NCBI GenBank assembly: GCA_947466075.1 | Contig: CANIBP010000003.1 | Coordinates: 124,001 to 188,000 of the forward strand | Length of the DNA stretch: 64,000 nt | Source: Verrucomicrobiaceae bacterium | GTDB taxonomy: Bacteria; Verrucomicrobiota; Verrucomicrobiia; Verrucomicrobiales; Verrucomicrobiaceae | Direction of reading: 5' to 3' | In this document: positions 5,322-38,648 of the stretch, piece by piece | Layout of the letters: the number at the start of each line of letters is the position of its first letter | How positions within the stretch are numbered: position 1 is the first letter of the stretch | The notes under the pieces: model-generated | Told to the model about the DNA's origin: nothing | The model's input: the letters and a program-made list of their open reading frames with translations, nothing else | Database searches by the model: none | Made by a program: the position numbers and the translations under genes

Positions 5322-6422
5322 ATGAACTACTGGCTCGATCTATTTACAGGCGTGAGCTGGGACGAATTTCGGAAGGCAGGCAGCAATGTCACAGGCTTTA
5401 GGGAATCTCGATGGAACACCCTTCAAAAGATCAAGAACGGCGACATTTTCCTTTGCTACCTGACAGGCGTATCGCGGTTCGTGGGTCTTCTCCAGGTCAC
5501 GGGCAAGCCGTTCAAAGACAACACCCCCATCTGGAAGGATCAAGTTTTCCCGTGCCGATTGCCAGTGAAGCCTTTGCTCGTGCTCGATCCCGAGTTTGGC
5601 ATTTCAGTCCACGACTTTCGGGATCGTCTCTCCTGCTTTATCAATGCAAGTTCTCAGCACGCATGGACGGGCGCGTTTCGTGGTTCTCCGTCGAAGTGGT
5701 CTGCCAGCGACGGCAAGGCGGTGACAGATGATCTTCGTGACGCACAACAGAATCCTCGAAAACTTCCGACCGATCCCCGAAAGCTAGCTCGAAAACCCAG
5801 AGCCTTTTTCGGCAAAGACAAAAAGGCAGTGACCATTCCGGATGATGACGAACTTCCGTTGCCTCAAAAGTCCGCAGTCACTACCTCGCCGACAGAACAC
5901 ACCGAGATACAGGCCCTTCTGCTCAGGCTTGGAGCGGATATGGGTTTCGATGTTTGGGTGGCCCGCAATGATCGCGGGAGAATATGCAACGGCACGACTT
6001 TGGGCGACATGCCGAAGATGAAGGAATCGCTTCCTCTTCAATTTGACGACGCCACGAATCGCACGATCGAGTTGATTGATGTTCTCTGGCTCAAGGGCAA
6101 CTCCATAGTAGCTGCTTTTGAAGTCGAGAGCACGACTTCGATCTATTCCGGCTTGCTTCGGATGTCCGACCTAACTGCGATGCAGCCCAACTTAAATATT
6201 CCGCTTTATCTCGTCGCACCAGATGACCGCAGGGACAAAGTCTTCAGTGAGATCAACAGGCCTACTTTCAGCCACTTGAACCCGCCGCTATCGGATTCCT
6301 GCCGATTCATCGCCTTCTCCGAACTCAAGCAGAAGATAAAGGACGTTGGCGCTTATCTTCGCTTTATGAAGCCTGAGTTCCTCGAAGAACTGTCCGAGGA
6401 ATGCACGCTGGATGATGACTGA
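5322..6422 (+). CDS. EVE-like domain fused to PD-(D/E)XK-type nuclease
   Basis: 366 aa, no signal peptide. Residues 1-105 (MNYWLDLFTG, NGDIFLCYLTG, SRFVGLLQVTG) resemble the EVE/PUA-like fold that binds modified bases. A charged linker follows (about 120-190). The C-terminal part has HTEIQALLLRLG (E195), then IDVLWLKGN with D253 and AAFEVEST with E267 and E269, which fits a PD-(D/E)XK core in which the usual Lys is Glu. The arrangement matches modification-dependent restriction enzymes, so phage or foreign-DNA defence is the likely role (inference). It sits alone inside a carbohydrate gene run. No methyltransferase is nearby, as expected for a type IV-like enzyme. Confidence 0.6.
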   Translation: MNYWLDLFTGVSWDEFRKAGSNVTGFRESRWNTLQKIKNGDIFLCYLTGVSRFVGLLQVTGKPFKDNTPIWKDQVFPCRLPVKPLLVLDPEFGISVHDFRDRLSCFINASSQHAWTGAFRGSPSKWSASDGKAVTDDLRDAQQNPRKLPTDPRKLARKPRAFFGKDKKAVTIPDDDELPLPQKSAVTTSPTEHTEIQALLLRLGADMGFDVWVARNDRGRICNGTTLGDMPKMKESLPLQFDDATNRTIELIDVLWLKGNSIVAAFEVESTTSIYSGLLRMSDLTAMQPNLNIPLYLVAPDDRRDKVFSEINRPTFSHLNPPLSDSCRFIAFSELKQKIKDVGAYLRFMKPEFLEELSEECTLDDD

Positions 6423-6478
6423 GGGAAGAATGGCGGAAGCGATTGCCAACTCGAATTAGAAAAGGGAAACACTCCACC

Positions 6479-6688
6479 ATGAGCGCCATCGCGGAACGCA
6501 TCGACCTTCGCCTTCGCCAACTGTCGCCGCGGCGGGCGGCGAAGCTGGAGCGAATCATCGCGAGCATTCTCGACATGGTTGAGCCCGAGGGTCCCGCGAA
6601 CAACATCACCGCCACCGACGCCGACAAACGCGCCGAGGCTCTGGCCGCGCTCAACCGCATCGCCAGTCGTGGTGGCCTTGCTGGGTGA
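6479..6688 (+). CDS. Small hypothetical protein
   Basis: 69 aa from the ATG at 6479 (an upstream in-frame start at 6443 lacks support). The sequence is a charged helix (MSAIAERIDLRLRQLSPRR, then AAKLERIIASILDMVE) followed by a second helical stretch. The leucine/arginine-rich helix preceding a short tail resembles small antitoxin-like or DNA-associated proteins, but I recognise no family and there is no toxin gene beside it. It starts 57 bp after the nuclease gene and could be its partner. Not recognised. Confidence 0.4.
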   Translation: MSAIAERIDLRLRQLSPRRAAKLERIIASILDMVEPEGPANNITATDADKRAEALAALNRIASRGGLAG

Positions 6689-6758
6689 GCTTTCCCTCCT
6701 TTTGCTTCCTCCGCATCTCAGCGGTGCAACATCAACGTGCGCTCCTCGTTCACTTACC

Positions 6759-7619
6759 ATGCGCCAAGCCACCACCATTCTTCTACTCGCTCTTTGCCCT
6801 CCGCTTTTCGCCCAGAAAGCCGGCAAAGCCACCACGCCACCGCCGACGAAGCCGCCCCTCGTGAGCGTGGATGTCACGAAGCTGCCGGAGGGCACGACGC
6901 AGCTCGATCTGTTCCTGCTCATGGGGCAGTCGAACATGAAAGGACGCGGCGTGATGCCGGAGGAGCCGAAGCGTGATCCGCGCATCGTCATGATGCACCT
7001 CAAGGACGACCAGTGGTATCTCGCACGGCATCCGCTGCACCTCACCGGCGAGGCGAAGACCTTCCAAGGCCACGACAACGCTGGTGTCGGCCCTGGACTG
7101 GTCTTTGCGGAGGTGATTGCCGCCGCGAATCCGAAGTCTGCCATCGGTCTGGTGCCCTGCGCGGTCGGTGGATCGTCGATCAAGCTGTGGCAGAAGGGCG
7201 CGAAGCTCTATGAGGAATCGCTTCGTCGGGCGAAGCTGGCCTTGCAGACGACAGCACCGTTGAAAGCTCGCATTCGTGGCGTGATCTGGCTGCAGGGTGA
7301 AGCGAATGCGAATCCCGAAGAACTGCCGCTGCATGCCGAGCGCCTCCGCGCGATGATTGAAGCCCTGCGTGCTGATCTCGTGTTGCCAGAGTTGCCCTTC
7401 ATCGCCTGCACCGTCGGCGAGTTGAAGCCTGGGCCGCTGCTGACGAACCTCAAAGCAATGAATGAGATCCAGCTCGCATTGCCGAAAAATGTGCCGCACA
7501 CCGCCTGCGTCGATGCACGCGATCTTAAGACGCACATCGGTGATGCCGTTCACTTTGACACCGCCGCGCAGAATGAGATCGGGAAGCGCTTTGCGGAGAA
7601 GTTCCTTCTAAACCCATAA
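6759..7619 (+). CDS. SASA-domain carbohydrate esterase (sialate O-acetylesterase-like)
   Basis: 286 aa with a signal peptide (MRQATTILLLALCPPLFAQ); the frame is open further upstream but only this ATG gives the export signal. The family's SGNH-type blocks are visible: LFLLMGQSNMKGRG with the candidate nucleophile Ser, CAVGGSSIKLW, GVIWLQGEAN, and DAVHFDTAAQ with the candidate catalytic Asp/His pair near the C-terminus. It should remove acetyl groups from sugars in the periplasm. It begins 70 bp after the preceding small ORF and is 4 bp from the next gene. Confidence 0.82.
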   Translation: MRQATTILLLALCPPLFAQKAGKATTPPPTKPPLVSVDVTKLPEGTTQLDLFLLMGQSNMKGRGVMPEEPKRDPRIVMMHLKDDQWYLARHPLHLTGEAKTFQGHDNAGVGPGLVFAEVIAAANPKSAIGLVPCAVGGSSIKLWQKGAKLYEESLRRAKLALQTTAPLKARIRGVIWLQGEANANPEELPLHAERLRAMIEALRADLVLPELPFIACTVGELKPGPLLTNLKAMNEIQLALPKNVPHTACVDARDLKTHIGDAVHFDTAAQNEIGKRFAEKFLLNP

Positions 7620-7623
7620 CGTC

Positions 7624-8199
7624 ATGCCAACCAGACTCTGCCTCTTCTTGCTGCTTCTCGTGAGCACCACTCTCGGCTATGCCAAGCAGTTCGTACTCTT
7701 CGATGTCACATTCACCTTCACCCAGGAGGACGCGCTTCAATCCAAGCCGAGCCAATCGCACTACTATGTCAAAAGCGATCGCTTGAACCCAGAACGGCCG
7801 AAAGACTGGACCACACCAGTCGATTACCGCAACGGCACGGTGCATGTGCGTCTGGAAGTCATCGGCAAACCCGAAGGTGGTCAGCCCACCACATGGAGCG
7901 TGTGCTACATCCCTTACAAAGGCCAGAACCATGGCTACGGCTGCATCGGCACTGGTGTTTACAAGGAGAAGGGCGTGATCGAGAAGGACATCGACATGAC
8001 GAGCTTCTGGCAGAACAACGACATCGTTTGGAGCGAAGGCGTCAAGGAGATGCATCTCGTCCTCAAGGACGATCACAATCTCCACGCGCACAAACGCCCT
8101 GATCCTGAGAAGTTCTTCCCCACCAAGGTGCGTATGAGGCTTATTCAGGTGTCCAAAGGTGGGAAGTATGATCCTAAGCTCGTGCCGGCGTTGCCTTGA
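7624..8199 (+). CDS. Secreted hypothetical protein
   Basis: 191 aa with a signal peptide (about residues 1-20, ending LGYA). The mature part is rich in beta-type segments (KQFVLFDVTFTFT, HVRLEVIGKPEGG, SVCYIPYKGQNHGYG). No catalytic motif or cofactor site is seen and I do not recognise the family. It follows the esterase gene by 4 bp, so it is probably co-transcribed and acts in the same compartment. Its stop codon abuts the stop of the convergent kinase gene. Confidence 0.62.
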   Translation: MPTRLCLFLLLLVSTTLGYAKQFVLFDVTFTFTQEDALQSKPSQSHYYVKSDRLNPERPKDWTTPVDYRNGTVHVRLEVIGKPEGGQPTTWSVCYIPYKGQNHGYGCIGTGVYKEKGVIEKDIDMTSFWQNNDIVWSEGVKEMHLVLKDDHNLHAHKRPDPEKFFPTKVRMRLIQVSKGGKYDPKLVPALP

Positions 8200-9057
8200 T
8201 CAAAACTTCTCTACCTGGAGCCATTCGATGCGCCGCTGGAGCTTGGCCTGACGTTCTGCGTTTGGGTTCGGGTAAAGAATGGGATACCATGCCGTCATCA
8301 CGGCAGCGCGGCCAATGAGGCTTTGCTGAAGCGCTTTTTCATCCACGGCGCCGTACGCAGCAAGGATGGTATTCACAGTGGACTGATCCTGATCAAGAAT
8401 TTGCGCATTCCAAATGATTGAGGCCACGTCCCACTCGACGGGACCGGCGAAGGTGTCCTCCCAATCTGTCCACAGCAGTCCGCGGGTGGTGTTCATGAGG
8501 TTGCCCATGTGCGCGTCGCCATGCAGAGCCTGATGAGGATAACGACTCAGCACTTCGATGGAGGTCGTTAGATGATCACGCAGCATCTGCTGTGTCGATT
8601 GGGCAAAAAGCTCGCGATCTTGAAGAATAGCGACGCTTTCGGTGAGGATCGCCAATTTCGGCAAGGGCTCCTGAAAACGGCGCATGATCTCATGACACAG
8701 ACGCAGTGTGCGACCGATCTCAGCGGGATCAGGTGCTGCCTCGGCTCGCGTCACAAACTCCCAGAAATTCAGCGGATATCCCAGATGTTCGTGTGGACCT
8801 GGCGGAAGATCGGGATGCAGCGGAATCGTTGGTGCTCCATGCTCTGTAAGATGCTGGGCGATGGCATTCTCTCGTGCAAACCATTCGGTGCCCTGCCGCG
8901 GCCCATCGCGATCTTGAACGACTCGTGCCACCAGTGTCTCCGTTAGCCGCAGAACGAGGGTGCTGCCGTTTTGCAGCACCTCACACCGATCCGGGGTGAT
9001 GCCGTGGGCTATCGCCGTTTCCGTAGCGGCGCGAATGGCTAAATTCGTGGAAGACAT
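8200..9057 (-). CDS. Aminoglycoside phosphotransferase (APH)-family kinase
   Basis: 285 aa, cytoplasmic. The family's catalytic loop is present as LHGDAHMGNLMN (Asp base and Asn for metal), followed by the metal site WTDWEDTFAGPVEWD. The N-terminal lobe contains GSTLVLRLTETLVARV in place of the nucleotide-binding strands. Members phosphorylate small molecules such as homoserine, choline, hydroxylated sugars or aminoglycosides; the substrate here is unknown, and antibiotic resistance should not be assumed. The stop codon touches that of the convergent gene at 8199. Confidence 0.78.
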   Translation of the reverse strand: MSSTNLAIRAATETAIAHGITPDRCEVLQNGSTLVLRLTETLVARVVQDRDGPRQGTEWFARENAIAQHLTEHGAPTIPLHPDLPPGPHEHLGYPLNFWEFVTRAEAAPDPAEIGRTLRLCHEIMRRFQEPLPKLAILTESVAILQDRELFAQSTQQMLRDHLTTSIEVLSRYPHQALHGDAHMGNLMNTTRGLLWTDWEDTFAGPVEWDVASIIWNAQILDQDQSTVNTILAAYGAVDEKALQQSLIGRAAVMTAWYPILYPNPNAERQAKLQRRIEWLQVEKF

Positions 9058-9082
9058 TGAAGAAAAACGCTGTGCTTCGCCT

Positions 9083-9757
9083 TCAGGCGTCCACTTCGCA
9101 ACTCTTCACATAAGCACCCTCTTCCTTCGCCACCCAGTTCACCCGCCAGCCTGCGATCTCCGTGGCATACTGGCGATCACTGTCCTCGTGATAGGCTGGC
9201 TGCGGTTGTTGGGCGAGCGATTGATTGATGATGATACGCACCTCGTCCGGCACGAGGCTTTCACAGTCCCAATGCACCGGCACAGGTGCAGGCGGAGTGT
9301 CGGCAAATCCGCTTCTTGCCTCGGGAATTGAGTCAGCAAAACGAATGTAAGGTTTGATGTCGAAAATCGGCGTGCCATCAACGAGATCGACACCGGAGAC
9401 GAACAGGCGAGGCGCTGCGGTTCCTTCGAGTTCCACCCGGTCCAACTTCACCACGCTGAGCGTGAGTCGGTTTGGGCGAAAGGGTGAGCGCGTAGCAAAG
9501 ACTCCACGTTTTTCGTTTCCACCGAGCCGCGGTGGGCGCACGCTGAGTGATTCGTTCTCTTGATTCACCAGATGAAACTGCGTGATGAGCCACAGGTGGC
9601 TAAATTCTTCGATGCCGCGCACGGCCTCCATGCGTCGATACTCTGGCTCAAACTCAATCACTCCCCAAGCGCTCGGCACCAGCCCTGATTGACGGGGGAC
9701 GCCGAACTTGTCGGTATAACAACTGCGCAGTGTGGCGATGACGTTCAGTGAAACCAT
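9083..9757 (-). CDS. trmO: tRNA (adenine(37)-N6)-methyltransferase TrmO-like
   Basis: 224 aa. The UPF0066/YaeB signature is clear: GIEEFSHLWLI near residue 50 and ATRSPFRPNRL near residue 90, with the SPFRPN block that binds S-adenosylmethionine. The family methylates N6 of threonylcarbamoyladenosine at position 37 of tRNA-Thr. The C-terminal domain ends after YATEIAGWRVNWV and is of usual length. It lies 25 bp upstream, on the same strand, of the APH-type gene. Confidence 0.85.
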   Translation of the reverse strand: MVSLNVIATLRSCYTDKFGVPRQSGLVPSAWGVIEFEPEYRRMEAVRGIEEFSHLWLITQFHLVNQENESLSVRPPRLGGNEKRGVFATRSPFRPNRLTLSVVKLDRVELEGTAAPRLFVSGVDLVDGTPIFDIKPYIRFADSIPEARSGFADTPPAPVPVHWDCESLVPDEVRIIINQSLAQQPQPAYHEDSDRQYATEIAGWRVNWVAKEEGAYVKSCEVDA

Positions 9758-9787
9758 TCAGCAAGGAGGACGAAGATCGGTGGCAAC

Positions 9788-11986
9788 TTACTTGAACCAC
9801 CGCAGCCGCAGGCTATTCAAAATAACGGACACGCTGCTGAGAGACATGGCCACGCTGGCGATCATGGGGTTGAGCAGCCAACCGGTGAAGGGATACAAGA
9901 TGCCAGCAGCGAGAGGAATGCCGAGGCCGTTGTACAAAAACGCGAACCACAGGTTCTGGCGGATGACCTTCATCGTGGCGCGACTGAGAGCGAAGGCTTG
10001 ATGCAAGGCGCGCAAATCGCCCTTCACCAGCGTCACAGCAGCGCTTTGGATCGCCACATCGGTGCCGGTGCCCATGGCGATACCAACATCCGCGGCGGCG
10101 AGAGCGGGCGCATCGTTGATACCGTCGCCAGCGAACGCCACACGGCGGCCACCTTCCTTCGTTTTATAGACATGCAGTAATTTTTCCTTCGGCGAGACCT
10201 CAGCGGCAACTTCATCGATGTCCAAATCTTTGGCGACACGCTGAGCGGTGGCCAGTGCGTCGCCAGTGATCATCTGCAGCTTTAAACCAAGCGCGTGCAT
10301 GGACTTGATCGCCGCTGGCGTGGTCACTTTCACTTTGTCCTTGATGGCGATGAGGCCGAGCGGTTTTTCATTGAGCACGACAATGACCACCGTGCATCCT
10401 TCCGCCTGAAATTGCGTGGAGCGTGCATTGCATTCGGCATCGAGAAAGACGCCGTTCTTTTTCAGAAATGAAGCCTGACCAACGAAGACTTCGCTCTCAC
10501 CGATGTTGCCTAGCACACCGCCGCCGGTGATGGATTGAAAATCGGTGACCGTGGCGAGTGGAATATTGCGCTCCTCAGCGGCTTTCACGATGGCGGTGGC
10601 AAGAGGATGCTCGCTAAGCGCTTCAACAGCGGCGGCGCACGCGAGCAGATCGCGTGCGGATAGGCCCGGTAGTGGGAAAATCTCGACTACCGATGGCTTG
10701 CCCTCAGTCAGCGTGCCAGTTTTGTCGAGCATCACAGTGTCAATCTCGCCAAGACGCTCCAACGTCTCGGCATTCTTGATGAGCACTCCGAGCTGCGCAC
10801 CGCGACCAAGGCCGACGGTAACGGCCATCGGTGTCGCAAGACCCAGCGCGCACGGACAAGCGATGATCAAAACGGCCACGGCATTCACCACGGCAAATGC
10901 GAATGAAGGCTGCGGGCCAAACTGCCACCACAGCAGGAAGGTCAGCGCTGCAATGAGCGCCACCGCCGGAACAAACCAGGCCGACACACGATCCGCGAGA
11001 CGCTGCACCGGCGCACGGCTAGCCTGCGCCTTGGCGGTCATGTCCACGATCTGGCTTAGCAACGTGTTCGCGCCCACACGTTCGGCACGCATGAGGAAGG
11101 TGCCGGTGCTGTTCACCGTGCCACCGGTCACAGCGGCGTTTGCCTCCTTCATCTGCGGCATGGATTCACCCGTGAGCATCGATTCATCCACCGCAGAGCT
11201 GCCCTCAGTGACGATGCCATCGACGGGAACGCGCGCGCCGGGCTTGATGCGCAGCACATCGCCTGATTGAATCGCCGTCACTGAGGTTTCTATTTCTTGG
11301 CCATCACGCACGAGCAGCGCTGTTTTCGGTGCGAGATTCATCAGCGCACGAATCGCGGAGCCGGTGGCCTTGCGGGCGCGGAGTTCCAGAAGCTGTCCGA
11401 GCAACACGAGCACGGTGATGACCGCTGCACTTTCAAAATACAGCGTCATGCCGCCATGTGTGGCCGCATGGGGCAGTGAGTTGGGTGCCACGAGTGCCAC
11501 CACGCTGTAGATCCATGCCGCCAGCACACCGAGGCCGATCAGCGTGAACATATTGAAGCGCAGATGCCGGAGTGAGTTCACAAACCGCACGAGCAGCGGC
11601 CAGCCGACCCAAAACACCACGGGGGTGGCCCAGACGAGCTGCATCCAACCGGAAGCGTCATGAGGAATGTCGCGAATGACCGGCAAGTCCACTCCCATCG
11701 AAAGCAGCACCACTGGTGCGGTCATGGCAGCGCTCCAGCGCACGCGCCACCATAGATCGCGCACTTCTTCTTCACCACCATCACCGCAGCATTCGGGCTC
11801 GTTGCGATGTGCGAGCGGATTTTTCTCCAAGACCATGCCGCATTGTGGACATGAACCGGGACCATCGGCACGCACGCCTTCGCACATTGGGCAGATGTAG
11901 GGAGCTGGCGGCAGAGGCAACGCCACCACTGGCTTCTCATCAGGCGAGGAGCAGTGCGGGCAGGATGTCGGCGCGTTAGGAAGCAT
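9788..11986 (-). CDS. copA: Copper-type P1B ATPase with N-terminal heavy-metal-binding domain
   Basis: 732 aa from the ATG at 11986 (a TTG eight codons upstream is less likely). The N-terminus lacks the usual HMA domains; instead it has a CPHC pair near residue 10 and a YICPMC...CPQCGMVLE block near 30-50, the YHS/heavy-metal-binding type. Membrane helices follow, with the transmembrane metal site ACPCALGLATP, the phosphorylation site DKTGTLTEG, and the hinge GDGINDAPALAAADVGIAMG. This set predicts export of copper or silver across the inner membrane. No copper regulator or chaperone gene is adjacent. Confidence 0.9.
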   Translation of the reverse strand: MLPNAPTSCPHCSSPDEKPVVALPLPPAPYICPMCEGVRADGPGSCPQCGMVLEKNPLAHRNEPECCGDGGEEEVRDLWWRVRWSAAMTAPVVLLSMGVDLPVIRDIPHDASGWMQLVWATPVVFWVGWPLLVRFVNSLRHLRFNMFTLIGLGVLAAWIYSVVALVAPNSLPHAATHGGMTLYFESAAVITVLVLLGQLLELRARKATGSAIRALMNLAPKTALLVRDGQEIETSVTAIQSGDVLRIKPGARVPVDGIVTEGSSAVDESMLTGESMPQMKEANAAVTGGTVNSTGTFLMRAERVGANTLLSQIVDMTAKAQASRAPVQRLADRVSAWFVPAVALIAALTFLLWWQFGPQPSFAFAVVNAVAVLIIACPCALGLATPMAVTVGLGRGAQLGVLIKNAETLERLGEIDTVMLDKTGTLTEGKPSVVEIFPLPGLSARDLLACAAAVEALSEHPLATAIVKAAEERNIPLATVTDFQSITGGGVLGNIGESEVFVGQASFLKKNGVFLDAECNARSTQFQAEGCTVVIVVLNEKPLGLIAIKDKVKVTTPAAIKSMHALGLKLQMITGDALATAQRVAKDLDIDEVAAEVSPKEKLLHVYKTKEGGRRVAFAGDGINDAPALAAADVGIAMGTGTDVAIQSAAVTLVKGDLRALHQAFALSRATMKVIRQNLWFAFLYNGLGIPLAAGILYPFTGWLLNPMIASVAMSLSSVSVILNSLRLRWFK

Positions 11987-30790: not shown

Positions 30791-31576
30791 ATGCCCAGAA
30801 CCGACGGACGCGCCCCAGACCAGCTTCGCAAAATTGAATACGTCCTCGACGTCGCCCCGCACGCCGCAGGCTCCGTGCTCATTGCCTTTGGCAACACCCG
30901 CGTCATCTGCACCGCCTGCATCAATGAGGAAGTGCCGCGCTGGATGAAGGTGCAGAACGTCAAAGGCGGCTGGCTCACCGCCGAGTACTCGATGCTGCCG
31001 TATTCCACCCTGGAGCGCAAAGACCGCGAAAGCTCCCGTGGCAAACCGGATGGCCGCAGCACTGAAATCCAGCGCCTCATCGGCCGCAGCCTCCGCGCCG
31101 TCGTCGATCTCGAAAAACTCGGTGCCCGCACCCTTTATGTCGATTGCGATGTGCTCCAGGCCGATGGCGGCACTCGCACCGCCGCCATCACCGGTGCCTG
31201 CATTGCCGTCTCCATCGCCTTCAACCGCCTGCTCGAAAAGGGCAAGATCACCCGTCAGCCGCTCAAGAAAAAAATCGCCGCTGTCAGCGTCGGCATCCTC
31301 AAAGGCGAAACGCTCCTCGACCTCTGCTACACCGAAGACGCAGCAGCTGATGTCGATAGCAACATCGTCCTCACCGAAGACGGCGAATTCGTCGAAATCC
31401 AAGGCAGCGGCGAAGAAGCCACTTTCACCGAAGCCCAGCTTCACTCCATGCTCGAATACGGCCGCAAGGGCATCAAAGAACTCGTCGCCATCCAAGACGA
31501 AGCCATCAACAGCGCCATGAAGCCCGCCGAAGGCAAGGATCTGCAAAAGTTGGCTGAGTTATTTGGCAAACGCTGA
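30791..31576 (+). CDS. rph: Ribonuclease PH
   Basis: 261 aa from the ATG at 30791; earlier in-frame starts lack family similarity. Family blocks: PRTDGRAPDQLRKIEY, SVLIAFGNTRVICTA, the phosphate-binding GKPDGRSTEIQRLIGRSLRA and DCDVLQADGGTRTAAITG. It trims the 3' end of tRNA precursors with phosphate. Just after its stop lies the decamer repeat element described separately. Usual family length is about 240-260 aa. Confidence 0.96.
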   Translation: MPRTDGRAPDQLRKIEYVLDVAPHAAGSVLIAFGNTRVICTACINEEVPRWMKVQNVKGGWLTAEYSMLPYSTLERKDRESSRGKPDGRSTEIQRLIGRSLRAVVDLEKLGARTLYVDCDVLQADGGTRTAAITGACIAVSIAFNRLLEKGKITRQPLKKKIAAVSVGILKGETLLDLCYTEDAAADVDSNIVLTEDGEFVEIQGSGEEATFTEAQLHSMLEYGRKGIKELVAIQDEAINSAMKPAEGKDLQKLAELFGKR

Positions 31577-31584
31577 GCGCAAGA

Positions 31585-31676
31585 GTTTGCGATGGTTTGC
31601 AGTCGTTGGCCGTAGTTTGCAATGGTTTGGTAAACTACTGCAAACAACCGTAAACAACAGCCAACCACCGCAAACC
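31585..31676. repeat. 10-bp-periodic GTTTGC array with internal inversion
   Basis: GTTTGC-type units start at 31585, 31595, 31605, 31615 and 31625, exactly 10 bp apart (GTTTGCGATG, GTTTGCAGTC, GTTGGCCGTA, GTTTGCAATG, GTTTGG). From 31638 the same unit continues in reverse-complement form, ending at 31645, 31655, 31665 and 31675 (GCAAAC, GTAAAC, GCCAAC, GCAAAC), again every 10 bp. The whole can fold as an imperfect hairpin and ends 1 base before the ATG of the next gene. It carries no gene. Confidence 0.75.
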
Positions 31677-31677
31677 T

Positions 31678-32613
31678 ATGACAGCTCTGCTTCTCGATCC
31701 TATCTACCAGCAGCATGACCCCGGTCCGGGTCATCCCGAGAGCATTCAGCGCCATGTCGCCATCACGAAAGCGCTCACGGATTCGGGTCTCGTCGCCCAA
31801 ACGCAGGCGATTCAGCCGCGCGTCGCCACGCTCGATGAAATCGCCCTCTGCCATGATCGTGGTTACATCGGCATCGCCAAAGCCGATGTCGAATCCGGCC
31901 GCGACGACCTCAGCACCGGCGACACGCAGATCTGCCCGCGCTCCTACGACGTCGCCACGCAAGCCGTCGGTGGTGTTCTGAACGCCGTTGATGCCGTCTT
32001 CACCGGCAAAGCCAAGAACGCCTTCTGCGCCGTGCGTCCACCCGGCCATCACGCACGTCCGGCTCAAGGCATGGGCTTCTGCCTGTTCAACAACATCGCC
32101 ATCGCCGCACGTCATGCAGAGAAGCAGCACGGCGCGCAGAAGATCGCCATCGTCGATTGGGACGTGCATCACGGCAACGGCACGCAGGACATCTTCTATG
32201 AAGACGGCAGCGTGCTCTTTTGCAGCACGCACCAAAGCCCGCTTTATCCCTTCACCGGCCACGCCGATGAAACCGGCAGCGGAAAAGGCAAAGGCAGCAC
32301 GCTCAACTGTCCCTTTCCAGCTCGCACTGGCATGTCAGACATCGGTGCCGCCTTCACCGACCGCCTCTTGCCTGCTATCGACAAGTTCAAGCCTGACTTG
32401 ATCCTCATCTCCGCCGGATTCGACTCCCGCATCGACGATCCTCTCGGCCAGTTCCGTCTCACAGATGACGATTTCGTCGCTTTAACCAAACTCCTGCTCG
32501 AATCCGCCGCCACGCATTGCCAAAACCGGCTCATCTCTATTCTCGAAGGCGGCTACAACATTCAGGGTCTTGCCAGCGCCGTGAAAAGCCACGTTCAGAC
32601 GCTCGTCGGATAA
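31678..32613 (+). CDS. Histone deacetylase/acetoin-utilisation family protein
   Basis: 311 aa. The class II HDAC-like core is complete: RPPGHHARPAQGMGFCLFNN, VDWDVHHGNGTQDIFY, LISAGFDSRIDDPLGQF and EGGYNI. These supply the Zn ligands (Asp, His, Asp) and the catalytic His pair. Substrates in bacteria include acetylpolyamines and acetyl-lysine; which applies here is unknown, though a putrescine pathway is encoded 7 kb away. Its ATG is preceded immediately by the decamer repeat, leaving no room for a ribosome site. Confidence 0.9.
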   Translation: MTALLLDPIYQQHDPGPGHPESIQRHVAITKALTDSGLVAQTQAIQPRVATLDEIALCHDRGYIGIAKADVESGRDDLSTGDTQICPRSYDVATQAVGGVLNAVDAVFTGKAKNAFCAVRPPGHHARPAQGMGFCLFNNIAIAARHAEKQHGAQKIAIVDWDVHHGNGTQDIFYEDGSVLFCSTHQSPLYPFTGHADETGSGKGKGSTLNCPFPARTGMSDIGAAFTDRLLPAIDKFKPDLILISAGFDSRIDDPLGQFRLTDDDFVALTKLLLESAATHCQNRLISILEGGYNIQGLASAVKSHVQTLVG

Positions 32614-33720: not shown

Positions 33721-33755
33721 TCGTCCTCGTGCTCGTTCTCCTACTCGTCCTCGAT
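33721..33755 (+). repeat. Left inverted repeat of the four-helix-bundle cassette
   Basis: 35 bp made of TCGTC/CTCGT/ACTCG-type words; begins TCGTCCTCGTGCTCG and ends CGTCCTCGAT. Complement of 34171-34205 with a single mismatch (33740). Confidence 0.85.
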
Positions 33756-33769
33756 CAAATCGCTCCGCC

Positions 33770-34231
33770 ATGCCCAACATCGTTCAATTCGACCATGAGA
33801 AACTCGAGGTCTATCAACTTGAGCTCGCCTTTCTCACCTGGGTTACTGACTTGATGATCGAAATCCGCGCCACACAGCATCCTCACCTTCGCGAAACCTT
33901 CGACCAACTCGACCGGGCGAGCCTGTCCGCCCTGCTCAACACCGCCGAGGGCAACGGCAAGCGTGCCACGCAGCAGCGAGCACGCTACTTCGACGATGCG
34001 CGTGGCTCTGCGATGGAGTGTGCGGCATGTCTGGATGCCTTGGTTGCTAAGCGAGCAACGACACAGCAACGAATCGCCGAGGGTAAGGCGTTGCTGATAC
34101 GAGTGGTGTCCATCTTATGTAAGCTCGTGGAGAGATTCGATGTAGGCGCTGCCAATTCGTTGCCGCTAGAATCGAGGACGAGTAGCAGAACGAGCACGAG
34201 GACGAAACTTGGAGGCTACGATCATGGCTGA
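33770..34231 (+). CDS. Four-helix-bundle (23S rRNA intervening-sequence type) protein
   Basis: 153 aa. The family core is visible: FDHEKLEVYQLELAFLTWV in helix 1, LDRASLSALLNTAEGNGKR with the conserved N/AEG turn, YFDDARGSAMECAACLDAL in helix 3 and a last helix to about 135. The bacterial family (TIGR02436-like; related to the Avd helper of diversity-generating retroelements) is of unknown biochemical function. The last 15 or so residues (ESRTSSRTSTRTK and beyond) are encoded by the right inverted repeat and overrun into the DUF58 start, so the tail is probably not functional. Confidence 0.82.
   Translation: MPNIVQFDHEKLEVYQLELAFLTWVTDLMIEIRATQHPHLRETFDQLDRASLSALLNTAEGNGKRATQQRARYFDDARGSAMECAACLDALVAKRATTQQRIAEGKALLIRVVSILCKLVERFDVGAANSLPLESRTSSRTSTRTKLGGYDHG
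34171..34205 (+). repeat. Right inverted repeat of the four-helix-bundle cassette
   Basis: 35 bp beginning ATCGAGGACGAGTAG and ending CGAGCACGAGGACGA; see the left repeat at 33721-33755. Confidence 0.85.
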
Positions 34232-35487: not shown

Positions 35488-35781
35488 ATGACTCAAGTCG
35501 CTATTCAACTTCCAGATGATCTCGGCCAGTTCCTACAGAGAGCCGTCCACTCAGGTGGATTTCACGATTCAAATGAGTTCTTCATCAGCATTGTTGCCAA
35601 TCTGAAGGAGCAGACAGAATCGCCTCTCACGAGCGAGGAAGAACTCAAGCTAGCATCCCTGCGCGTGGATATTCAGCACGCTGTCGATCAAGCGGAGCGT
35701 GGTGAGGTCATCCGCGACTTCAAAATGGATGCATTTCTCGAAGAACGTCACCGCGAGCACTCCGCTGCTGACGCAGCCTGA
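35488..35781 (+). CDS. ParD-like antitoxin
   Basis: 97 aa. The N-terminus TQVAIQLPDDLGQFLQRAV then GGFHDSNEFFISIVANL fits a ribbon-helix-helix DNA-binding domain of the ParD/CopG type, and the acidic helical remainder (EEELKLASLRVDIQHAVDQAERGE) would cover the toxin. It is 6 bp from the toxin gene. It should repress its own transcription. Confidence 0.78.
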   Translation: MTQVAIQLPDDLGQFLQRAVHSGGFHDSNEFFISIVANLKEQTESPLTSEEELKLASLRVDIQHAVDQAERGEVIRDFKMDAFLEERHREHSAADAA

Positions 35782-35787
35782 TCCTGC

Positions 35788-36090
35788 ATGCCGCTAGTTG
35801 ACGTCACACTCGATGCACAGGCCGATCTCAAGGAGATATGGGCCTTTGTAGCCCGTAATAGCGTGATGCAAGCGGACCGGTTGCTGAATCGCTTTCAGGA
35901 AACGTTTCAATATCTTGCCAGCCATCAGGGATATGGTCGTCCTCGTTCGGAACTGTCGCCTGGTTGCCGCAGCCATCCTTTCGGGAAATACTGCTTCTAT
36001 TTCCGCACGACGAATGATGGCATTCTACTCCTGCGTGTGCTGCACTCCGCTCGCGACATCCGCCAGATCGAGTTCCCGAAGAACCCATGA
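35788..36090 (+). CDS. RelE/ParE-family toxin
   Basis: 100 aa. The fold blocks are DVTLDAQADLKEIWAFVARN, then RLLNRFQETFQYLASHQGYGRPR, and the last strand segment ILLLRVLHSARDIRQIEF, with the R/S-rich end typical of RelE/ParE. The stop (36088-36090) lies inside the 30-bp repeat and overlaps the ATG of the batA-like gene, mimicking the original junction. Confidence 0.85.
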   Translation: MPLVDVTLDAQADLKEIWAFVARNSVMQADRLLNRFQETFQYLASHQGYGRPRSELSPGCRSHPFGKYCFYFRTTNDGILLLRVLHSARDIRQIEFPKNP

Positions 36091-36114: not shown

Positions 36115-38066
36115 TTGCCCTGCCGCTTGCGGCGCTGCCGGTGATCATTCATTTGATCCACCTGTATCGGCGGCGACAGGTGAAGTGGGCAGCGATGATG
36201 TTTCTGCGCATGGCGCAGCGCATGAACAAGGGCCTATCGCGGTTGCGGCAGATTTTGATTCTGGCGTTTCGCGTGCTGGCGGTGGCGGCGATCCTGTTTG
36301 TCATCACGCGCCCGATGGCGGGTGGTTTGCTCGGGATCACGGGCGGCGTGCCGGACACGGTGATCGTGCTGCTCGACCGTTCGGCGAGCATGGAGCAGCA
36401 AAACCTCGCTACTGGCACCAGCAAGCGCGCCGCAGGCATCGCGAAGCTGTCGCAGGCCTTGCGCGATACCGTGGGCACGCGCTCGAAGCTCGTACTCATC
36501 GAAAATGCGCATTTGCAGCCACAGTTGCTCGAAAAACCTGAGTCGCTCGTCGATCTGCCGCTCACCGGCCCCACGGACACCACAGCGGACGTTCCAGCGC
36601 TGCTGCAAGGCGCGCTCGATTACATCACCACAAATCAAACCGGCCGCACCGACGTGTGGGTGCTTAGCGATCTGCGTCAAAGCGACTGGGATGCTGCCAG
36701 CGGCCGCTGGCAGGCCCTGCGCGGTGCTTTCACCAGTCTCAAAGGCCTGCGTTTTCATTTACTGACCTATGCGCAGCCTGTGTCACAAAATATCGCGGTC
36801 TCCGTCGAGCGCACCGTGCGCCGCGAAACGGCTGACAAGGCCGAACTGCTGCTCGATCTCCGCATCACACGCGATGCAGCCACTGCCACGCCCACCGAGT
36901 TGCCGCTGCGATTTGTCATCAATGACGTGAGCACCACGATGAGGGTCGAAATGAAGGACTCGCAACTCGTGCTGCAAGGTCATGCCATTCCCATCGATAA
37001 AACGACAAAGCGCGGCTCAGGCCGTGTCGAACTGCCCGCTGATGCCTCGCCCACCGACAACGTCTTCCACTTCGTCTTCGATGAACCCGCCGTCTTGCGC
37101 TCCGTGATCCTCACGGACGACGAAACCGAAGCTGGGCCACTTCAAGCCGCGCTCGAAGCCGCCGCCGATCCCACGCGCAAATATGCCGCCACCATCCTGC
37201 CCGTCTCCCGCGCCGCCGAAATCGCGTGGGATGACACCGCGCTCATCATTTGGCACGCCGCTTTGCCCAAGGTGGATGATTTAATCACGCAACAACTCAC
37301 GAATCATCTCAAAACCGGCCGCAGCATCCTCTTCCTGCCCACCGAAACACCGAACACCGAATCCTTCGGCGGTTTGCACTGGGGTGCCTGGAGCGGTGAT
37401 AGCAAACCCGTCACCGTCGAGTGGTGGCGCAACGACACCGGCCTTCTGGCCAACACTCGCAGCGGCACCTCGCTCCCCGTCGGCGAACTCGAAGTCACCC
37501 GCCGCTGCGACATCCTCGGCGAAGGCACACCGCTGGCCCGACTCGCCGAAAACAAGCCGCTGCTCATGCGCGCTGACATTCCTGGCGATGGCAATGCCTG
37601 GTTCCTCGGCACACTGACGGGTTCCGGCAGTTCCAGCCTCGCGCGTGATGGCGTCGTGATGTTCGCCATGCTACATCGTGCCTTAAATGAAGGTGCCAGC
37701 ACCCTCGGCAAAGCCCAGCAACGTGAAGCCGCCGCCGCCGACACACTGATCGACTGGAAGCGATCTGGCGATGCCATGCTCAGCTCCGAACAATCATCGC
37801 GCGCCGGCATCCTGACCAAAGACGACAAACTCATCGCCCTGAATCGCCCGCTGCGCGAAGACCGACCCGAAACACTCGGCAAGACCGCTCTCGAAGAACT
37901 CTTTGCCGGACTCGATCATCACATCATCGAAGATCAGGTCGAAAACGAAACCAGCCTCGCCAGCGAAATCTGGCGCACGTTCCTATTCCTGATGGCGCTC
38001 GCTCTTCTCGGTGAGGCATTGCTGTGCATGCCTTCACGCAGGGAGACTGTCCAAACCACTGCTTAG
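36087..38066 (+). CDS. BatA-like VWA membrane protein
   Basis: 659 aa. The BatA N-terminal membrane segment (FLVPALLLALPLAALPVIIH) is followed by LIHLYRRRQVKWAAMMFLR, the family's signature, then a second membrane segment near 58-78 and a VWA metal site VLLDRSASMEQQ. The large periplasmic part looks like stacked beta domains with a glutamine-amidotransferase-like module, and there is a last membrane helix near 635-655. Works with MoxR and DUF58 (BatA/Aerotolerance-type complexes in other bacteria). The first nine codons are duplicated upstream at 35410. Confidence 0.85.
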   Translation: MTFLVPALLLALPLAALPVIIHLIHLYRRRQVKWAAMMFLRMAQRMNKGLSRLRQILILAFRVLAVAAILFVITRPMAGGLLGITGGVPDTVIVLLDRSASMEQQNLATGTSKRAAGIAKLSQALRDTVGTRSKLVLIENAHLQPQLLEKPESLVDLPLTGPTDTTADVPALLQGALDYITTNQTGRTDVWVLSDLRQSDWDAASGRWQALRGAFTSLKGLRFHLLTYAQPVSQNIAVSVERTVRRETADKAELLLDLRITRDAATATPTELPLRFVINDVSTTMRVEMKDSQLVLQGHAIPIDKTTKRGSGRVELPADASPTDNVFHFVFDEPAVLRSVILTDDETEAGPLQAALEAAADPTRKYAATILPVSRAAEIAWDDTALIIWHAALPKVDDLITQQLTNHLKTGRSILFLPTETPNTESFGGLHWGAWSGDSKPVTVEWWRNDTGLLANTRSGTSLPVGELEVTRRCDILGEGTPLARLAENKPLLMRADIPGDGNAWFLGTLTGSGSSSLARDGVVMFAMLHRALNEGASTLGKAQQREAAAADTLIDWKRSGDAMLSSEQSSRAGILTKDDKLIALNRPLREDRPETLGKTALEELFAGLDHHIIEDQVENETSLASEIWRTFLFLMALALLGEALLCMPSRRETVQTTA

Positions 38067-38110
38067 CCGAAAAAGAGAAAAGAAGGTAAAAAGCTCCAAT
38101 CCAATAAACC
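38062..38110 (+). repeat. 49-bp imperfect direct repeat, left copy
   Basis: CTTAGCCGAAAAAGAG and following; 38 of 49 bases match 38560-38608. It overlaps the end of the batA-like gene and precedes the GxxExxY ATG by 7 bp. Confidence 0.75.
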
Positions 38111-38117
38111 AGATTCC

Positions 38118-38549
38118 ATGAAAGACCGAGCTTTTGAACTGACTGACACTGTGCGGGAAACAGCGTTTCAGGTGCGACGCTATTTTGGGACGGGGCACTT
38201 GGAAAAGGTCTATGAGAATTCACTGGCGCATCGTCTGCGAAAACTTGGGCTCAAAGTGGAGCAGCAGAAGCAGCTCGTTGTGCGCGACGAGGATGGCTTT
38301 GTGGTGGGTGAATACTATGCAGACATCGTGATCGAGGATCTGCTGATTCTGGAACTGAAGGCCGTCAAGACGCTGGCAAACGAGCATTTGGCACAGATCC
38401 TGGGTTATCTCCGCGCAACTGGTATGGAACACGGTGTGCTCATCAATTTTGGTGCTCCCAAGTTCCAAATTCGCAAACTCAGCAAACAAGACCTCGCACC
38501 TGCCTCTGGCCTTCGCAGCTTCGCTCAAGCGATCTGCGCCCTTTTCTGA
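38118..38549 (+). CDS. GxxExxY protein
   Basis: 143 aa. The name motif appears as GTGHLEKVYENSLAHRL near residue 24-40, followed by VEQQKQLVVRDEDGFVVG and YYADIVIEDLLILELKAVK, in which Asp and the ELK pair fit a PD-(D/E)XK-type core (D..ELK). Members occur in many copies in Planctomycetes, Verrucomicrobia and other genomes; the reaction is unknown. It is flanked by repeats and has clearly been inserted within the operon. Confidence 0.88.
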   Translation: MKDRAFELTDTVRETAFQVRRYFGTGHLEKVYENSLAHRLRKLGLKVEQQKQLVVRDEDGFVVGEYYADIVIEDLLILELKAVKTLANEHLAQILGYLRATGMEHGVLINFGAPKFQIRKLSKQDLAPASGLRSFAQAICALF

Positions 38550-38559
38550 CTCAACCCTT

Positions 38560-38635
38560 TTTAGTCGAAAGAGAGACAAGAAAGAAAAGAGTTCCAAACC
38601 GACAAACCTTTTTTCTCCTCTTTCCTCTTTTTCGG
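38560..38635 (+). repeat. Right end of the GxxExxY cassette: direct plus inverted copy
   Basis: Bases 38560-38608 repeat 38062-38110 in direct orientation, and 38608-38635 repeat its purine-rich part in inverted orientation. The two can pair with each other (purine arm against pyrimidine arm) around the GTTCCAAACCGACAAACC region. Confidence 0.7.
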
Positions 38636-38648
38636 CCAGCTCAACCTC

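Follow-up and report, generated by a model that had tools for sequence, protein, structure and literature searches.

Intervening sequences (IVS) that lack an open reading frame are also found in the rRNA of Salmonella. The S23/IVP proteins are widespread, and we know of no function established for them. The ERIC/IRU elements of enterobacteria are imperfect palindromes of about 100 bp that lie in transcribed intergenic regions and are present or absent at the same junction, and they are not known to have periodic units or a linked S23 gene. In the TRAP ring, a fixed number of boxes matches the ring subunits. An IVS carrying an S23 ORF within the 23S rRNA, as in Coxiella burnetii, is described in a part of PMC4990558, where the S23p of Xanthomonas is also reported to be a homopentamer; in a part of PMC3733652, the REPs are characterized as single hairpins of 20-40 bp with a GTAG or CGTC tag.

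The array considered here lies in a 64,000-nucleotide stretch from the genome of a Prosthecobacter-like bacterium of the Verrucomicrobiaceae, this whole stretch being called the window below. Its family resembles the 23S rRNA IVS in the inverted terminal sequences that surround an S23 gene inside a transcribed region, in the sporadic presence and in the occurrence of ORF-less versions; however, the array is situated between protein-coding genes (rph and deacetylase) and not in the rRNA, each arm is a row of some five boxes whose letters are conserved and whose pairing shows no covariation, and many ORF-less copies exist per genome. With the ERIC/IRU it shares the form of an imperfect palindrome of about 100 bp, the transcribed intergenic site and the presence or absence at each junction, but differs by the periodic units and the linked S23 gene. 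The REP/BIME repeats with RAYT are likewise dispersed palindromic repeats outside genes, whereas here 91-bp arrays of 10-bp units are found. The TRAP ring serves as a model only, with no homology claimed, and the binding of S23 to the boxes is hypothetical. Among the open-access papers covered, none on such arrays in Prosthecobacter or Verrucomicrobia was found, the nearest being PMC4990558. The reading preferred here, with a probability of roughly 60%, is that the array is an ORF-less element of the S23/IVP type (IVS-like), situated at an operon junction and maintained as a series of recognition boxes, perhaps for S23.

Structure of the array in the rph-deacetylase gap

The gap between the rph-like gene (RNase PH domains, Pfam PF01138 and PF03725; 30758..31576, + strand, with the stop codon ending at 31576) and the downstream histone-deacetylase-like gene (31678..32613, + strand; PF00850, E 5e-97), whose start codon adjoins the array, is filled by 91 bp of repeats at 31585-31675. 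The leading arm (31585..31630, + strand) is of the G-type (GTTKGC) and comprises four units of the consensus GTTKRCNRTN and a fifth box, GTTTGG, the forward GTT boxes starting at 31585, 31595, 31605, 31615 and 31625. The trailing arm (31630..31675, - strand) repeats the motif five times on the opposite strand, with the reverse AAC boxes ending at 31635, 31645, 31655, 31665 and 31675, and the base 31630 is the centre common to both arms. The arms of 44 nt are 77% complementary, and TRF assigned the period of 10 to each. Thus, the 10-bp spacing with inversion proposed in the initial annotation was borne out by the letters and by TRF, and so were its five forward boxes, while the reverse boxes number five instead of four; the array had been given there as 92 bp reaching 31676, one base before the ATG, and in fact ends at 31675, two bases short of the ATG at 31678.

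Neither a sigma-70-like promoter nor a terminator was found within the array, and both readings were rejected. The same holds for a CRISPR array, as the 10-bp units are without spacers and the Rfam match to CRISPR-DR61 is below the cut-off; all other Rfam matches to the array also remained under their gathering scores (the best, MIR950, with 31.6 against 95 bits). The statement of the initial annotation that the array is neither a terminator nor a CRISPR repeat therefore stands. The two-unit pattern (up to 2 mismatches) had 14 matches in the window, eight of them within the array, for 8.95 expected, and the degenerate three-unit pattern, run over the own genome, had 48+48 matches (96) where its reversed control had 2+2 (4), so that the genome-wide search suggested at the outset found the array recurring. 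The array is real and not a product of chance, and a decayed tract, a terminator, a CRISPR, a REP or a MITE fit it poorly. With its inverted pair of arms, each of some five GTTKRCNRTN boxes, placed in a gap of an operon, the array agrees with the S23/IVP cassette family with GTTKRC arms as defined here; no gene, and so no S23 (PF05635), lies between the arms of the window copy, which is therefore filed as an ORF-less relative and not as a full cassette. In 17 relatives the gene is found at a different locus.

S23 cassettes and their arms across the genus

Genes of PF05635 (S23/23S-rRNA-IVP) were found in 38 of the 39 genus genomes, and the mere presence of S23 was thus rejected as a marker, only the clade being informative. 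In the sample of 85 genes (84 and that of the window) from 164 matches summed, the flanking genes were mutually co-directional in 79 of the 81 cases with both called, and 71 of 85 genes had a flanking inverted repeat with a score beyond the 95% level obtained from mispaired flanks. The arm motif varies between the S23 clades, and so does the period, with a median unit count of 4.43 for 7 bp (71 arms), 4.62 for 8 bp (17 arms), 4.30 for 10 bp (34 arms) and 3.8 for 11 bp (4 arms), apart from outliers of up to 17.8 units and few calls of 6, 9 and 12 bp; four complete units followed by the beginning of another amount to five boxes per arm. The feature common to the S23 arms looks like the number of units (about 4.4 per arm) and not the helical phase, on which the initial annotation had laid the emphasis.

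The loaded S23 cassette of the window (33721..34205, + strand) lies in a gap between two same-strand genes and has TCGTCC-type arms of 6-bp units at 33721-33755 and 34171-34205, forming an inverted repeat of 35 nt with 97% identity around the S23 gene at 33770-34231 (+ strand; PF05635, E 9e-13). Two further observations were made downstream of it, namely a ParD/ParE-like toxin-antitoxin pair at 35488-36090 and, at 38066-38636, a cassette-like gap between two same-strand genes, where a 27-nt A-rich inverted repeat surrounds a 143-aa gene, which we take to encode a GxxExxY protein.

The 17 S23 genes with GTTKRC arms belong to one clade of 19 (support 97/91), whose two remaining members, in genomes G018 and G033, have an 11-bp arm variant. 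Six genes with A-type arms form one subclade (87/95), for which a single change is sufficient, with 0 of 500 shuffles as low. A single locus, with an isomerase-like gene on one side and a GlgE-like or MFS-like one on the other (names by reading), houses all 19 genes, so that the arm type may in part follow the protein clade by linkage. In the 19 cassettes inspected, the stop codon of S23 is where the second arm begins. The proteins of the clade are near neutral or acidic (pI mostly 5.6-6.9) and not basic. Among solved chains, 2gsc (five chains, E 3.5e-20) is the closest.

At the prfB junction, an S23 cassette with CTGGATTC-type arms is present in L392, L394, L396, L397 and L409, and a gene-less GTTKRC array in L037, L112, L120 and L205. 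An S23 clade without inverted arms was observed between gyrB- and gyrA-looking genes at ten loci (L390, L391, L393, L398, L415 and L418-L422) and is perhaps a domesticated S23.

Gene-less arrays and their relation to S23

The query with the isomerase gene of the S23 locus matched in 19 of 20 genomes. The S23 gene is absent with both arms kept in six genomes (G021, G012, G028, G031, G002 and G030), one arm is left in G017 and G004, and a short gap without arms is found in G008, G007 and G020. Letters resembling the 3' end of S23 precede the second arm in the six genomes that keep both arms, which points to deletion of the gene. The S23-less arms are more decayed, with a median of 57 of 64 against 63 where S23 is intact (six genomes that possibly share one event), and the rph arms are not worse in the S23-less genomes, both comparisons leaving aside the two variant and two one-armed genomes.

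The 11-bp pattern is restricted to two of the 39 genomes, the same G018 and G033 that have the 11-bp S23 arms, and in each of them it occurs at three places away from S23. One of these places, C22 of G018 (L456), is a TatD-like junction, which in L183, L214 and L249 is occupied by 10-bp arrays. Such an unlinked match would be explained if arrays and S23 arms descend from a common ancestor, or by recognition in trans, and would not be explained by chance. The S23 of the GTTKRC clade was found in 0 of 7 array-free genomes, as checked at the S23 locus or among the 14 fetched of their 26 matches, and as an intact gene in 15 of 28 genomes with arrays (Fisher 0.012, or 0.005 with the two variant genomes included), 13 of the 28 being without it in the sample examined. 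The A-type share of the arrays agrees weakly with the S23 type (P 0.02), with the exceptions of G001, G005, G006 and G015.

On these comparisons of sequence, the existence of the family, its placement in operon gaps, the arm architecture identical to that of the S23 cassettes and the S23-less arms at the S23 locus are established, as is the agreement in a rare arm variant that unlinked arrays show with S23 cassettes. Strong backing for the early suggestion of an empty cassette end-pair comes from the same arms enclosing S23 in relatives and remaining where the gene is gone, except that the array is not an empty pair of the S23 cassette downstream in the window, which has arms of another type.

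An array for an unrelated DNA-binding protein, response-regulator-like (such as one of the OmpR/PhoB type) or nucleoid-associated, which would line up on one face of the DNA while the S23 genes merely fell between its sites, is unlikely, though in keeping with the 10-bp spacing, the sequence-specific constraint without pairing described below, and the intact arrays that persist in genomes without a GTTKRC-clade S23. The direct repeats bound by PhoP of M. tuberculosis, as given in a part of PMC4832192, offer a precedent. However, such a protein does not predict that the other S23 clades also sit between inverted arrays of their own motif, nor that the 11-bp variant tracks S23.

Dispersed copies and their genomic positions

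The array family occupies about 25 places in the own genome, and the pattern with up to 1 mismatch was present in 28 of 56 genomes, that is, in 28 of the 35 of the same genus and in 0 of the 21 of other genera. In a scan of one genome per species across 84,980 species, at least 115 stretches matched; among the 80 matches listed with titles, nine were titled outside Verrucomicrobia and two more as Akkermansia, and the paired element was found in none of those nine. The contigs of other species with matches were labelled Verrucomicrobiaceae, Verrucomicrobia, Prosthecobacter and Brevifollis. In viral contigs, 33 stretches matched in one direction, and none of them had the paired element.

With the neighbouring genes at array and S23 loci called by a simple purpose-made codon-usage caller, 44 of the 49 distinct paired elements had both neighbours called (three lay at contig ends and two inside a called gene), 39 of the 44 having co-directional genes on their two sides and 37 coming within 25 bp of each neighbour. 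Compared with the window, where 43 of 56 gene pairs are co-directional, the excess of orientation has P 0.04, or P 4e-4 when set against intergenic length; as orthologous loci are repeated in several of the counts, the P values there are guides only. The orientation alone is a modest excess, and the striking part is the tight fit between the genes. The junctions recurring across several species include rph, prfB, pgk-tpiA, dapB-folK and others (names read from the proteins). In 1.85 Mb of loci, mostly chosen for the GTTKRC motif, the scan for ORF-less arrays gave 34 of the GTTKRC family and 79 others, of which 76 were runs of N in L359 and three were real.

Several peculiar loci were also noted. 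Long perfect tandem GTTGGCGGTG runs, unlike the usual five boxes, occur in one genome (G019, C5, C16 and C20). GC-rich REP-like hairpins of about 19-20 bp replace the units inside the array, near the 10-bp register, in L079, L080, L081, L085, L097 and L101, loci between paralogous collagen-like gene pairs. By eye, two arms of the same orientation enclose a nucleotidyltransferase-HEPN-like gene pair in L091 (2996-3835), and in L086 the arm at 11462 precedes a PIN-like gene. Also in L086, at 5774-11085, large ORFs of HNH type and two ORFs after them, of 299 and 117 aa, look like Cas9, Cas1 and Cas2.

A selfish palindromic repeat (REP-, ERIC- or MITE-like), tolerated in operon gaps without a host function, is improbable. 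The copy number, ranging from 0 to about 200 matches between species, would suit it, as would the co-directional gaps and the presence or absence at dapB-folK, where the array occurs in some species and only 4-12 nt separate stop from start in G017, G008, G004, G027 and G011. However, no near-identical copies were found at unlike junctions among the 49 elements, with a top identity of about 0.83, hence no sign of recent movement, and recent transposition was rejected; with no target-site duplication seen by eye between filled and empty dapB-folK gaps, the array does not have the features of a MITE either. The Y1/RAYT transposase does not track the arrays and was rejected as their partner in a test at the family level only, Y1_Tnp being in all 39 genomes, including array-free ones; together with the 91-bp length, this also sets the array apart from the REP/BIME. 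The selfish repeat is weakened already by the constraint on the letters at orthologous places, as follows.

Constraint on the box letters and on pairing

The deacetylase locus was found in 28 genomes and is adjacent to rph in 16, of which 15 have the array (decayed in G004) and G011 has none; the alignment of the orthologous gaps covers 14 of the 16, leaving out G011 and G015 (N in the array). In the leading arm of these 14 relatives, 4-8% of comparisons show a difference at G1, T2, T3, C6 and T9, against 40-52% at the remaining unit positions, while the trailing arm is noisier and less conserved (T2 16%, T3 27%, K4 18%, N10 22%). The elements at other junctions show the same constraint, although they were found by the motif, with the ascertainment this brings. 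Purifying selection to keep the box letters is demonstrated at the level of these alignments. The initial annotation had proposed comparing the rph-deacetylase gap in relatives and named confinement to one place with free variation among close strains as the mark of a decayed tract; neither was found, the array recurring and its motif letters being constrained.

The pairing of the arms behaves otherwise. Among 40 of the 49 elements, with 4+4 units each, pairs of facing units did not agree better than pairs that do not face each other at any of the variable positions, and among 33 of the 49 no preference for wobble was seen, G.U pairs and A.C mismatches numbering 11 and 12 at R5, and 36 and 29 at R8. 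Units within one element agree on A or G at R5 in 82% of cases, against 51% between elements, whether facing or not, and the A/G type can differ between species at orthologous junctions. Selection for a hairpin, which the initial annotation had noted as a fold open to the inverted array, was therefore rejected by the absent arm-to-arm covariation and G.U/A.C asymmetry, in spite of the strong predicted fold.

That the element acts as RNA, its long transcript hairpin being processed by RNase III between cistrons as in the rRNA intervening sequences, is accordingly very improbable. This would be in keeping with the position inside operons, with the predicted fold, which has -39.6 kcal/mol and a z of -4.7 (between -3.6 and -5.9 across six elements), and with the IVS precedent, where a part of PMC4990558 gives the S23 ORF with RNase III excision, but compensatory change between the arms is absent at every variable position, G.U is not preferred to A.C, and it is the letters that are invariant rather than the pairing. 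A decayed low-complexity tract without function retains a negligible probability, since slippage makes tandem repeats and some copies are expanded or decayed, but the inversion, the constant number of about 4.4 units per arm and the letters constrained at orthologous places contradict it.

Proposed mechanism and implications

In the preferred reading, that of an ORF-less S23/IVP-type element, two inverted arms of five sequence-specific boxes are set in the gap between two co-directional genes; in the loaded form, the middle of the palindrome is taken up by the S23 gene (four-helix bundle, PF05635), from whose stop codon the second arm runs. The boxes would be read by a putative protein, perhaps S23, and the dispersed copies may have arisen from S23-type cassettes; the candidate roles of such binding are mobility, insulation of the operon genes, or RNA processing as in the rRNA intervening sequences. 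Weighed against this reading are the 19 S23 genes at a single locus, the arrays without S23, the weak agreement of the A-type, the non-basic pI and the lack of near-identical copies.

A more specific and rather doubtful version, put forward tentatively by analogy with TRAP, is that S23 forms rings of five subunits and that every lineage reads an array of five boxes peculiar to it, with one box per subunit, so that the arrays, loaded or empty, would be targets at operon junctions. The letters and the period would then co-evolve with the protein, the A or G type with the S23 subclade and the passage from 10 to 11 bp with the G018/G033 lineage. The near-neutral or acidic character of S23 counts against one box per subunit.

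If the pentameric-ring version is true, a protein family that has had no known function would gain a role in recognition. The array may show what the S23 protein recognises, and with a readable motif, clade-specific letters and period and a near-constant number of units, the question of the S23 target becomes a simple binding test. The findings suggest that the IVS-like elements, known from rRNA, may have relatives in protein-coding operons, in the form of palindromic arrays at the same junctions across species.
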